Source: Lumbricus terrestris | Lineage: Eukaryota; Annelida; Clitellata; Crassiclitellata; Lumbricidae | Assembly (NCBI GenBank): GCA_949752735.1 | Contig: OX457036.1 | Location: 98,065,761 to 98,129,760 of the forward strand | Direction: 5' to 3' | Length of the DNA: 64,000 nt | Part shown: positions 7,466 through 40,002 of the stretch, in pieces | Layout of the letters: the number at the start of each line of letters is the position of its first letter | Position numbering within the stretch: the stretch's first letter is position 1 | The notes under the pieces: generated by a model | What the model saw: only the letters and a program-made list of their open reading frames with translations | What the model was told of the DNA's origin: nothing | The model's database searches: none | Program-made: the position numbers and the translations under genes

Positions 7466-7590
7466 TTAGGACACGCGAGTACATCTTCTAATCCAACATA
7501 TATATCCTGACTGTCCGTTGACAGTGCAGTAATAGTATTGAGTGACGCAGCGATAGATAGCTCGGCGCTGTCTCTGCGCTGCATTAGGTT
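7466..7590 (-). CDS. Gene A exon 6 (furin site and peptide)
   Basis: Acceptor GTTTTGCAG. The phase-1 junction gives EPNAAQRQRR and then the 31-residue peptide, with the stop at 7468-7466. A longer frame through the same DNA exists, but joining by splice phase and the shared EPNA start with gene B select this one. Confidence 0.87.
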
Positions 7591-10500
7591 CTGCAAAACA
7601 AAAACAAAACAAAATGTAACTGATGTGGTGCAAACCAGAATTTTAAATTAAACTGAATCTTATGGTCATGTAGGGGGAAGTCGGGGCGAGATGGACCCTT
7701 GGGGTATGATGGATCCCGTCAATATAAGGTATATATGGTGTCACCACCTATCGAATGAACTTCAATTATTGTAATACTGTTGGCGCTTTGGTGATTTGAC
7801 CAAAATAAGCGACCGAAACAACATTTTTTCGTTTTTTATGATGAAAAGTTGATTTTCGACCTCCTCGATCTTATTTCAAGAAACACTTATTTGCTAAGTA
7901 TTCAATTGCGCATTGTCACAGGCTATTGATGCAAGTATATTTGGTTAAACACCCTTTTCTGCCGTATTAACGAATTCAGTATTGGCAGGATACCCAGTAG
8001 ATTGAATTTTTAATTGGTGAAAAGTTTATACTTTACGCATGGGGGTGAGTTGGATCAGTCACCGACGGGGCAAGACGGACCTTGTGATCCATCTTGCCCC
8101 GTTTGTGTGAATTTTTCCTGTGGTTCGAATTTTTTCATCCGATTTCACATGTTAATTAATTATTATGTTATTATTACTATAACAATAATTGTTGGATACA
8201 ATAATAATGACAATTAACGCGAAAGACATGATTGCAGTGGTCTATCTTGTTCCACCATGGGGGCAAGATGGACCACTAAAATCGCCTAAAATCGAACAAA
8301 TCTAGTCAAATGTAATTTCTGCGTTATTCTCACTTTTACATTATAGTCTCGATCACATTTATGCATAAAATAGTATTCTGCATGTGATCAGAACATGCTA
8401 TGATGAAAGACTAATGCGTGGGGCATGATTTATTAGATTGGTCCATCTTGCCCCATAGTGGGGGCAAGACGGACCTTTACGACTAAGTTTTTAAATTTAA
8501 AAAATCTTTTTATCAAAAAGGAATGCAATTAAATTTGTGTTGCCCTTAGCTAAGGTACTGTATAAGCTACGAGTAGCAAAAAAAGTTGTGCCCGTGAAGC
8601 ACGTTTATGGTGTCTTAAAACCAAACATCCGTTACGGGGTCCGTCTCGCCCCGACTTCCCCTATAGAGCGCATAATACGCTGCACATTTCCTTCGCCTAG
8701 TCAAGGCATTTATACAAATGGCATGTATATAATGGGCCTTGGCTGAACAGTAGAGGCAGTCACGTGCTTTGACGTGCAATAATAATTAGTGGAGCGATTA
8801 GTCGCATAGAGGTGAAAATACAGATATATAAGGTAATAAGCTCGTTAAAAGTTCAGTCCGGAAATGGACTGTCGGCTACGTAGCTGGTCTCGTGTGGATA
8901 AACTTCTAGTTGTTCGAGCAATATTTTCACGCTGATGAACCTGTTCTAAAGTAAGTCCAGCATCATTATTGTAAACCAATAGCTAGAAGCCTTCGAAAAC
9001 CACTTCATCTGTTAATGCATGAAAGGCATGGCTGCGTTATGTGATTCAGATGCAGTGAGACTAGAACAGACCTTGTAAGACCTTCCTTCACCAGCTCGAC
9101 ATTATCATACTGGATTTGTCTCAAGTGCTTTACAATGGTAAAGGACGCATTCTGGAATAGAGAAGAGCTGCTACGAGGAAGATTTAAATGAATCTAGGCC
9201 TAAAGAAAAGTGGTAAAAGAGCCTCATATGGGGCGTGGCACAATAATTTATTAAGCAGAAAAATGGACTATGGGGAAATTGGAAATGCGGAAGTGGAAAG
9301 ACTTGAGGCATTTGAAATGTGGACATGGAGAAAGATGGCCAGGATTAGTTGAATGGACTACAAAACCAATAATTGGTGACAAAAAATGATATCGCTGATT
9401 GATAAAATTATACGGAAGAGGCAGATGAACTGGCTGGACCACATCTCCCACATGTTGACGGGAGACTCTCTCTTGAAGATAGCAGTGGAGGAAAGAATGG
9501 AGAGCAATCGTCATCGTAATCGAAAACTCGAAATTTCTAAAGCGCTACTCGAGAGCCAAACGCGGAGCAACAGCTTATTCATGAACGCTGCGCTGAGTCA
9601 GAAGGGTTGTCCGTGAGAGTAGGCCGTAGTGGTCTGGGTCCAGTTACCATAGGATCAGAGGGGCGGAACAGCTACTAAGGCGGGTGTCGTCCGGGCCGGG
9701 AGAGTGGAGGATCAGATGAGGCAGGGTAAGAGTTCTTGAAAAGCAGTGTCTTAAGTTTTGAATGAAAAGCCCGAGGTGTGATGGATAGAGCAGTCTGAGG
9801 AAGGTGATGGTGTGCTATTAGTAATGGTGGTGGAGGGACTGAAAAGGATCGGAATTCAGGAGGCAGACCATTCCAAAGGCGTGGTGCTGAGTTGGATATG
9901 GTTCGGTTGGAGAACTTGAGATGACTTGTGACCGGCGGTCGAGAGAAAAACCTACAAGATGACCACGAAAGACGAAGATTGATCGGTTGATGAACGGAGA
10001 AGAGGGAAGAGGATGATAGAGAAATCAACGAATAAACATAGAATAGACAGGAATGGTGTCGTTGGATTCTTGGACTGAAGAAGAAGAAGAAGAAGAAGAA
10101 GAAGAAGAAGAAGAGAAAAAAGAAGAAGGAGAAGTAGAACAAGAACAAGAACAAGAACCTATTGCAATAGCCGACAATTTCGTATTATTCAATTATCTTA
10201 TAGTAATTCCCAGAATTGATAGGATCCCGTTTCGTTTGACACAACACAGTCATGCAGAAATAAATTTGCGTAGTCTCACCATCACCGCATTCTGGATACA
10301 TCCAGTAGACTGAAATCCCTTTGCACGTTTCTCTCGCCGTCTTCCCCAGGAAAGATGCGTCCGATATTGGAGTGCTCGACACATCATAATAGAGTGTGTT
10401 CGTAACATTTTTCTGCAAAAAATATGGTAGGCCTATATTGGCTACATTCAGTTAGAAAAATCGCTTCATTGTGTCTATTGAAGTAACTCTGAAATGTAGC

Positions 10501-39400: not shown

Positions 39401-40002
39401 TCAATCGATGATGCTTAGAGAAAGTTTTGTGAAGGCATGAGATCGAACGCAGGTAAAACACATCAAATGCCATTTTGTTGTTGAAAAAGTATTTTTATTG
39501 TTATTTTTCTCAGGAAAATTCCGATTTCTTGATTTTTCGACATGTTTCTTTTCGCTTTTTAATTTTTGTGTAACCTTATTCGTTTAGTTATGGCTTGCAA
39601 TTATTTCTCTTAATTTTATATCCGAGTTTCAGCCTTTCAAGAATTCAGCTACATGTAATATACATAACTATTTATCCGTTTTAGCATCATTCTTTGAGAC
39701 AAAAATTACACAGTACAAAAATTAAGGGTTTTAATGGTTGTCGGACAACGGGGACAACGTCAGATAAAAATCAAGACAGACTTATTAGGAAATGCAGGCT
39801 AAGCTTGCTACGCATTAATTTAATTAGCTGTTCTATAACTGAAGTTGATCGTATCACAAAATTGATGAGACACAGAATTAAATAGATGCAGATTTCATAA
39901 GAAGCCGTGCTTGAATGTAGGCTATGATACCTGAGTGATCACCACAGGAGTCTCTGAAGCAATGTTCTTCTTGGTGTCGATCATTCTCAAGAGTCTTGGC
40001 AT
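30310..40002 (-). CDS. BRICHOS-domain peptide precursor, gene B
   Basis: Six coding exons (40002-39931, 37931-37788, 35222-35100, 33959-33840, 33314-33182, 30437-30310) join into 239 aa with the same intron phases as gene A. Residues about 38-63 form the membrane helix. The BRICHOS domain runs from about 98 to 197, with D109/D110, C128 and C183. The processing site is RQQR (204-207), a minimal R-x-x-R furin motif rather than the RQRR of gene A. The 32-residue C-terminal peptide has cysteines at 215, 223, 232 and 237, spaced C-x7-C-x8-C-x4-C. It is hydrophobic and close to neutral, with one Arg, one His and one Asp. By hand, about 153 of 173 residues encoded by exons 2-5 match gene A, yet the peptide matches at little beyond its cysteines. 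Introns carry a LINE, a TA element and satellites. Confidence 0.88.
30885..31705 (-). pseudogene. CR1/L2-like LINE fragment, 5'-truncated
   Basis: Very close to the 3' half of the element at 61.65-63.2 kb, including the SASE ending, the ATATAGCGCC 3' UTR and the ATTCATT tail at 30885-30899. Two extra bases near 31482 (GCGTATAGTTG against GCGTAGTTG) break the frame. It starts abruptly at about 31700 and lies in intron 5 of gene B. The matching intron of gene A lacks it. Confidence 0.88.
31751..32942. mobile_element. TA-flanked transposon with transposase scrap
   Basis: 1192 bp with imperfect inverted ends (GGGGATACCGGGGTCGAAAG against GGGGAGACCGGGAACGAATG) and TA flanks (31749-31750, 32943-32944). 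GGGG..GATGTAACA-like words recur inside in both orientations, as in the other TA family. It sits in intron 5 of gene B. Confidence 0.78.
32414..32539 (+). pseudogene. Transposase C-terminal PHD-like zinc motif
   Basis: A short frame reads CTLCAGFGRGGEWWFRC, then CGYWEHKAC and ends at TGA. The C-x2-C...W-x-x-C-x2-C-x2-W-x-H-x2-C pattern occurs at the C-terminus of many pogo/CENP-B-like DDE transposases. No DDE part is left. Confidence 0.6.
33182..33314 (-). CDS. Gene B exon 5
   Basis: 44 codons plus one base, RETCKGISVYWMYPKCGY at its end. The acceptor reads TTTTGCAGCAG, a tandem NAGNAG site. The first AG keeps the length of gene A; the second would drop one Gln. Donor TATG|GTAAGA. Confidence 0.88.
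33530..33695. repeat. Short minisatellite arrays
   Basis: ATGTCC-containing units at about 33535-33590, then about six 15-bp units of the ATGATCAACAGTCCT type at 33608-33685. In intron 4 of gene B. Confidence 0.75.
33840..33959 (-). CDS. Gene B exon 4
   Basis: 40 codons with GTNCYIVPLNRTNAADPSK. Donor AAG|GTCAGT as in gene A; acceptor ATGTAG. Confidence 0.9.
34035..34165. repeat. Remnant of the GGATTGATGAAA satellite
   Basis: Three or four units of AAATAGAAG(T/C)(T/C)G(A/G)ATTGA type in intron 3 of gene B, related to the arrays at 25, 28 and 59-61 kb. Confidence 0.6.
34402..34913. repeat. 12-bp satellite with 24-bp higher-order period
   Basis: About 43 units of AATAAGCTAAT(G/A). From 34402 to about 34811 G and A alternate at the last base, giving a 24-bp unit. 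After that only the A version is repeated. Reading frames on both strands are artefacts. In intron 3 of gene B. Confidence 0.97.
35100..35222 (-). CDS. Gene B exon 3
   Basis: 41 codons ending in NYETWVIDDFNR. Acceptor CTTGCAG and donor CGG|GTAGGA. Confidence 0.9.
36040..36690. repeat. Dispersed repeat with G-rich core
   Basis: CACCA(C)CGGGGG/CATGGGGG-GCCAGGGTG occurs twice (about 36070 and 36200). 36308-36570 is almost pure G/T/A on plus, with GGGTGGGGTGG runs. The end is CCCGGGCAACGCCGGGTACC. Long proline-rich minus frames are artefacts. Confidence 0.7.
36691..37315. other. Intron 2 of gene B, unique part
   Basis: No recognisable element or exon. Confidence 0.4.
37316..37750. repeat. Polypurine GA/CAGA tract
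   Basis: Over 400 bp of GAGA, CAGAGA and CAGACA units, with a pure (GA)n end at 37690-37745, just inside intron 2 of gene B. Confidence 0.97.
37788..37931 (-). CDS. Gene B exon 2 (membrane anchor)
   Basis: 48 codons, MAADVPKPRNTKK then the hydrophobic helix and QAQKDIIK. The donor AAG|GTTTTC is weaker than consensus. A 430-bp GA/CAGA tract begins 38 bp into the intron. Confidence 0.9.
37990..38306. mobile_element. MITE with 8-bp duplication
   Basis: 317 bp. Ends ATGGGCGGAGTT / AACTCCGCCCAT, with TGGCAATC on both sides (37982-37989, 38307-38314). GACTAAAAAA(A)GGTCATCAAC occurs twice inside. It lies about 58 bp upstream of exon 2 in intron 1 of gene B. Confidence 0.8.
38395..38500. repeat. 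15-bp minisatellite
   Basis: About seven units of GACAAA(A/T)GCG(C/T)G(C/T)A type. Confidence 0.85.
38501..39930. other. Intron 1 of gene B
   Basis: AT-rich, non-coding. 39240-39420 aligns with 15625-15815 in intron 1 of gene A (CATGCGTTTGTCAG(A/G)TGGAA, then CATTCAACAGAC). Confidence 0.55.
39931..40002 (-). CDS. Gene B exon 1
   Basis: 24 codons, MPRLLRM...PVVITQ. Donor CAG|GTATCA. One codon longer than in gene A. The upstream ATG of gene A is ATA here, which fixes the start. Confidence 0.8.

Follow-up and report, generated by a model that had tools for sequence, protein, structure and literature searches.

A tandem array of BRICHOS-precursor genes with divergent last exons in the earthworm Lumbricus terrestris

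Arenicins, capitellacin and nicomicins are annelid peptides with measured antimicrobial activity, each placed C-terminal to a basic site in a BRICHOS precursor. Alvinellacin is a 22-residue cationic peptide whose precursor has a signal peptide. Both the alvinellacin and the capitellacin gene are split into 6 exons by 5 introns; in the former, the last intron is in phase 1 and the others are in phase 0 (PMC4002450). Preproalvinellacin is tandemly duplicated, and its paralogues encode an identical peptide behind a diversifying BRICHOS domain (PMC5431198). The transcriptome of Heteromastus filiformis holds 13 BRICHOS precursors (HfBRI) in nine structural families, 5 of the 13 membrane-anchored, with two long 11-Cys peptides lacking marked positive charge; their authors liken them to cathelicidins (PMC10745061). 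We describe here two genes, A and B, in a 64,000-nucleotide stretch of the Lumbricus terrestris genome (assembly GCA_949752735.1, contig OX457036.1, here C1, positions 98,065,761 to 98,129,760, forward strand; "the window", position 1 being its first letter), and the larger array of BRICHOS-precursor genes to which they belong.

Genes A and B, both minus-strand and with outer ends at 7466 and 40002, were rebuilt from splice sites and mutual comparison as six exons each, with products of 237 (A) and 239 (B) amino acids. The features are as follows.

16232..16300, minus: gene A exon 1, cytosolic N-terminus (splice model; tblastn against paralogues)
13972..14115, minus: gene A exon 2, single membrane helix (splice model; hydropathy)
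12331..12453, minus: gene A exon 3, linker and BRICHOS start (splice model; Pfam)
11694..11813, minus: gene A exon 4, BRICHOS, Cys127, sequon at Asn133 (splice model; Pfam; alignment of relatives)
10280..10412, minus: gene A exon 5, BRICHOS end, Cys182 and Cys194, phase-1 end (splice model; Pfam; alignment)
7466..7590, minus: gene A exon 6, cleavage site, released peptide, stop (splice model)
7562..7573, minus: gene A furin-type site RQRR (translation; site at the corresponding place in relatives)
7469..7561, minus: gene A predicted released peptide, 31 residues, 4 Cys, net charge +4 (translation)
39931..40002, minus: gene B exon 1 (splice model; tblastn against paralogues)
37788..37931, minus: gene B exon 2, membrane helix (splice model; hydropathy)
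35100..35222, minus: gene B exon 3 (splice model)
33840..33959, minus: gene B exon 4, BRICHOS (splice model; Pfam)
33182..33314, minus: gene B exon 5, BRICHOS end, phase 1 (splice model; Pfam)
30310..30437, minus: gene B exon 6, cleavage site, released peptide, stop (splice model)
30409..30420, minus: gene B furin-type site RQQR (translation)
30313..30408, minus: gene B predicted released peptide, 32 residues, 4 Cys, net charge 0 (translation)

The rebuilt models reproduce exactly the six-exon structure, product lengths and outer ends that an earlier note on this DNA had given. All 10 introns of the two genes are GT-AG, with phases 0,0,0,0,1 in both. Exon number, phases and the position of the peptide in the last exon are those of the alvinellacin gene; unlike alvinellacin, the peptides of A and B (31 and 32 residues) stand behind a membrane anchor. 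The best relative among public sequences, P0001 (231 residues), aligns to 97% of A with 87% identity (E = 3.1e-131), through all six exons. It is encoded within a public contig of 936 bases, whereas gene A spans 8.8 kb; the simplest source of such a contig is spliced RNA, so the six-exon joins are very likely real, on the support of a sequence from another sample and probably another species. The resemblance between A and B is not due to chance: exons 1 to 5 share 79 to 94% DNA identity, the two exon-6 frames are still recognisably similar (E = 1.2e-6), and public data include full-length relatives.

The Pfam BRICHOS profile, cut-off 25 bits, matches both products, A with 39.4 bits (E = 7.4e-10, residues 102 to 189) and B with 41.9 bits (E = 1.2e-10, residues 103 to 190). 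The earlier note had pointed to conserved Asp and Cys residues; Cys127, Cys182, Cys194, Asp87, Asp109, Asp113 and Asp170, in A numbering, are invariant in all 27 aligned sequences. The superfamily is defined by two conserved Cys and one Asp (PMC6265681); the pattern is present here, with several invariant Asp residues as candidates for the single one of the family. Each product has one hydrophobic segment near its N-terminus (A residues 37 to 55, mean hydropathy 2.87), with four Lys or Arg in the 15 residues before it and one in the 15 after. Because the basic residues concentrate on the N-terminal side, a type II orientation is predicted, as the note had proposed. A luminal BRICHOS domain fits the sequon [LF]NxS/T, which lies upstream of the BRICHOS end in 52/52 relatives scored (in exon 4 of A).

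The basic sites before the C-terminal peptides, RQRR in A and RQQR in B, are of convertase type, although that of B has no basic pair and is R-X-X-R only, a less frequent form of the convertase site (PMC6265681). They precede tails of 31 and 32 residues with four Cys each, as the note had read them. Weaker Pfam matches to the SP-C propeptide and ETRAMP fell under the cut-off and were put down to similarity of membrane helices. Against NCBIfam, P0001, P0003 and P0010 had no match over cut-off; phmmer with the whole of A found no match among PDB chains, and Foldseek with the P0001 model found none in PDB at 0.001 (best E = 0.47). An AlphaFold2 model of P0001, the closest relative of A, ends in a predicted beta-hairpin, as does the prediction for the relative P0003.

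The surroundings were examined in the same genome (1.056 Gb), 150 kb leftward of the window and 100 kb rightward, with 200 N on either side. On the same strand to the left lie gene C, intact, at window coordinates -26970 to -45261; gene D, a fragment with exons 1 to 5 at -54105 to -59559, in which TTG stands in place of the ATG of the other genes; isolated copies of exon 3 at about -62.6 and -65.4 kb; gene E, intact, at -81884 to -103491 (234 residues); and exon-6-like pieces near -74.9 and -112.7 kb. Inside the window, tblastn found one further copy, absent from the earlier note, and no other exon beside it:

43633..43755, minus: solitary third exon-3 copy, its beginning matching A in a different frame from the rest

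This exon looks broken because of that change of frame. To the right of it, no family exon was found by tblastn up to 164 kb in window coordinates. The local cluster claimed for A and B is thus larger than claimed, with C, D, E and stray exons extending it leftward beyond the window.

With exons 2 to 5 of B as query, the whole genome yielded at least 129 exon-level matches. From these, 30 copies of BRICHOS exon 5 were counted by hand on seven contigs (C1, 8; C17, 14; C19, 3; C15, 2; C5, C13 and C16, 1 each), taking rows that reached query 170 to 172, started at 110 or later and had E < 0.004, with one at E = 0.3 excluded. Eleven of the C17 copies lie near 25.7 to 26.2 Mb and three near 3.7 Mb. 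Among 10 C17 loci read (10 of the 14 were fetched), 8 have candidate last exons of 102 to 122 codons with 10 to 13 Cys, similar to the tails that P0010 and related sequences carry; of the exceptions, L026 gave no candidate of this type, and L035 a shorter candidate unlike the others. The long exons recall the 11-Cys peptides of HfBRI. Loci L026 to L035 form a second BRICHOS array at C17:25.72-25.90 Mb. For L037, a plus-strand copy near C1:97.83 Mb, the family last exon was not found in the 3.2 kb examined. The C1 array (97.82-98.11 Mb) is at most about 1.1 Mb away from the end of its 98.9-Mb contig (98,895,420 bases), possibly near a chromosome end. The BRICHOS profile itself found no match in this genome and likewise none in 14 control genomes, a search that is uninformative because the domain is split over exons. 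Eryth_link_C, in contrast, had nine matches over cut-off, against none in the 14 controls; we take it to be a domain of annelid haemoglobin linkers, and to our knowledge it is confined to annelids. Together with the exon number and intron phases of the alvinellacin gene and the hairpin-ended P0001 model, these matches support the assignment of A and B to annelid-type BRICHOS precursors.

The carrier part of the genes is steadier than the peptide part. DNA identity between A and B is 79, 94, 85, 92 and 89% in exons 1 to 5 and 53% in exon 6; up to the cleavage site 176/206 amino acids are identical, and in the peptide 5/29 in a multiple alignment or 7 in the best pairwise one. The A-B nonsynonymous distance (dN) is 0.074 in BRICHOS and 1.18 in the peptide, with a precursor ratio to the synonymous distance (dN/dS) of about 0.26. 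Other pairs give peptide dN of 0.64 to 1.30 against precursor dN of 0.13 to 0.18. The younger pair, C and E, has no such excess (peptide dN 0.151, dS 0.185; precursor dN 0.058, dS 0.175, ratio 0.33), values calculated from a 233-residue form of E with exon 2 begun 3 bases late. Neutral drift was simulated from A and from B in 1,500 runs each. At the precursor synonymous distance of 0.32, identity as low as observed arose in 0.13% of runs from A and 0/1500 from B (by score, 0.13 and 0.27%); at 0.45 the figures were 1.5 and 1.4% (by score 3.8% for both), at 0.60 12% (by score 20 and 21%) and at 0.80 more than 40%. Fast change in exon 6 is therefore likely, hinging on the neutral distance assumed. 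In a midpoint-rooted precursor tree, one group unites A and B with P0001 and another C and E with P0003; the two groups have support of 0.926 and 0.949, and the pairings within them 0.717 and 0.405.

We considered whether the B peptide arose because its gene exchanged exon 6 with a different one, and disfavour this origin. At E <= 1 the genome search with exon 6 of B reported that exon alone, the sequence on either side of exon 6 can still be aligned in short stretches between A and B, and the two peptides score above 99.7% of shuffles. On these grounds change of exon 6 in place appears preferable. The pattern is opposite to that in Alvinella, since here the carrier is steadier and the peptide changes.

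The Cys residues of peptide A stand at 5, 12, 22 and 27 (spacing 6-9-4) and those of B at 8, 16, 25 and 30 (7-8-4). Peptide C has 30 residues with 15 Tyr and 4 Cys (net +2); peptide E has 27 with 10 Tyr and 6 symmetrically placed Cys (net +1); a further last exon at C1:97840352-97840465 encodes 28 with 9 Tyr and 4 Cys. P0001 keeps the cysteine spacing of A and 21/31 of its peptide residues, and the spacing of P0003 is nearly that of C, so peptide types persist across samples, with B departing. In a survey of 58 sequences, P0026 and P0027 were skipped for lack of a BRICHOS end, and P0035 (with a Tyr-rich tail), P0037, P0038, P0046 and P0048 had no site by pattern. This left 51 tails, of which 32, from relatives and A, B, C and E, have at most 45 residues. 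Among these short tails, Tyr makes up at least 20% in 12, and net charge is at most 0 in 15, 1 to 3 in 14, and at least 4 in 3. Tyr is 54% of the P0005 tail and 4.2% of precursor parts. Sequence searches of PDB chains gave seven weak unrelated matches for peptide A and none for peptide C.

A 2026 review gives beta-hairpin antimicrobial peptides a charge of 1 to 8 and a length of 11 to 25 residues (PMC13001179). A (+4) falls within that charge range and B (0) outside it, and both are too long. Each has four Cys; predictions of a hairpin are those for P0001 and P0003, relatives of the two. Because B fails on charge and both fail on length, neither is filed in that class here. The earlier note had both genes releasing antimicrobial peptides of arenicin type. 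The precursor class stands and the charge of A agrees with such a peptide, but the blanket claim is not supported, given the neutral B, the excess length of both and the Tyr-rich, weakly charged C and E, read from whole genes of the array. Since short tails are mostly of low charge and often Tyr-rich, the antimicrobial class describes A better than it does the array. A may plausibly be a membrane-active peptide; for B, C and E, membrane oligomerisation or material assembly are candidate roles alternative to direct killing.

Varied peptides on one BRICHOS carrier are already in print for H. filiformis, which resembles the array in having many unlike C-terminal peptides behind a single carrier. 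The accessible text of that report describes no genomic arrangement and does not contain "tyrosine" or "Tyr", but its sequences sit in figures, so a Tyr-rich member is possible there. Glycine- and tyrosine-rich peptides are reported from a diversified cluster in C. elegans. An annelid counterpart of the tyrosine-rich cystine peptides was not found in the literature covered, most subscription journals being outside that coverage. On tandem BRICHOS clusters in annelid genomes, that literature yielded the Alvinella report only. In the parts covered we met neither a genomic array of such genes, nor so marked a richness in tyrosine, nor the reverse of the Alvinella pattern.

Other features were noted in the window. 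A long frame at 46996-48843 (plus), adjoining the end of the array, is probably a single-exon leucine-rich-repeat protein gene (Pfam LRRNT and LRR_8 over cut-off, Ig I-set just under). Two long open frames, 56522-58396 (plus) and 61700-63220 (minus), contain reverse transcriptase domains (126.9 and 92.5 bits) and resemble elements without long terminal repeats; a reverse-transcriptase-end fragment at 30929-31713 (minus), in intron 5 of gene B, is seemingly close to the second. Near-identical sets of open frames at 25041-25524 (minus) and 28093-28576 (plus), about 2.6 kb apart, form an inverted repeat. Minisatellite-like arrays occupy 34392-34941 (intron 3 of gene B), 42600-43120 and 43915-44380. 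A Cys-rich frame at 63659-64000 (minus) is PHD-finger-like by eye and has no Pfam match.

Genes A and B are real, correctly placed and correctly classed as precursors, and they are part of a much larger family. We consider it probable that they belong to a large annelid family of BRICHOS precursors, expanded by tandem duplication, that releases varied defence peptides. The precursor would consist of a short basic cytosolic end, a membrane helix, a luminal BRICHOS domain, a furin-type site and the last-exon peptide. Anchored in the membrane, it would pass into the secretory pathway with its BRICHOS domain on the luminal side, where this domain may serve as a built-in chaperone holding a sticky, strongly beta-forming tail. 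Disulfides would form, the tail would fold as a beta-hairpin, and a furin-like protease cutting at RQRR or RQQR would free it. Duplicates that keep exons 1 to 5 and alter exon 6 would provide one carrier with a set of different peptides, a split that may be likened to that of vertebrate cathelicidins, which also join a conserved prodomain to a variable released peptide (PMC10745061) but have a different, cathelin-like prodomain. We infer that the peptides most likely act in membrane-active defence or microbiome control.

The composition of the tails also invites the reading, which we regard as unlikely, that the Tyr- and Cys-rich peptides are building material for mucus, tube lining, cuticle or cement, with A a side branch; the hairpins would assemble or cross-link through tyrosine (dityrosine, 3,4-dihydroxyphenylalanine) and disulfides, BRICHOS keeping them soluble until release. 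Tyr at 15/30 in C, 10/27 in E (alongside its 6 Cys) and 9/28 in the C1:97840352-97840465 exon, the excess in the P0005 tail over precursor parts, and a net charge of at most 3 in 29/32 short tails agree with it, while the alvinellacin-type gene structure points to defence ancestry. Structural proteins are mostly long or repetitive, and conserved; these peptides are single units of 27 to 32 residues that differ between genes. A related suggestion, offered tentatively, is that the BRICHOS carrier is a platform for Tyr- and Cys-rich, nearly uncharged hairpins that assemble or cross-link, and not for cationic antibiotics, its exon 6 diversifying behind a steady chaperone part. Many secreted signals come from precursors with a convertase site and a short cystine peptide at the end, and this shared layout, with the retention of A's cysteine spacing in P0001, would suit signals or ligands (hormone-like, or directed at other cells) with a diversity that mirrors diverging receptors; we think this improbable, as the hydrophobic or Tyr-rich composition, the 30 exon-5 copies and the unlikeness of the A and B peptides suit defence better. 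Very improbable is that A and B are decaying duplicates in which exon 6 drifts because its peptide is unused. Decayed pieces do occur in the array, namely the gene with TTG for ATG and the stray exons 3 and 6, but the reading frames of A, B, C and E are uninterrupted and their introns GT-AG, the precursor dN/dS ratios of the A-B and C-E pairs are low, and each exon 6 keeps at least four cysteines and the cleavage site.

If the platform suggestion were true, BRICHOS would be a chaperone general for beta-sticky clients and not matched to one. The locus offers a natural experiment on whether a BRICHOS domain must fit its client, since closely similar domains precede four unlike peptides in one array.

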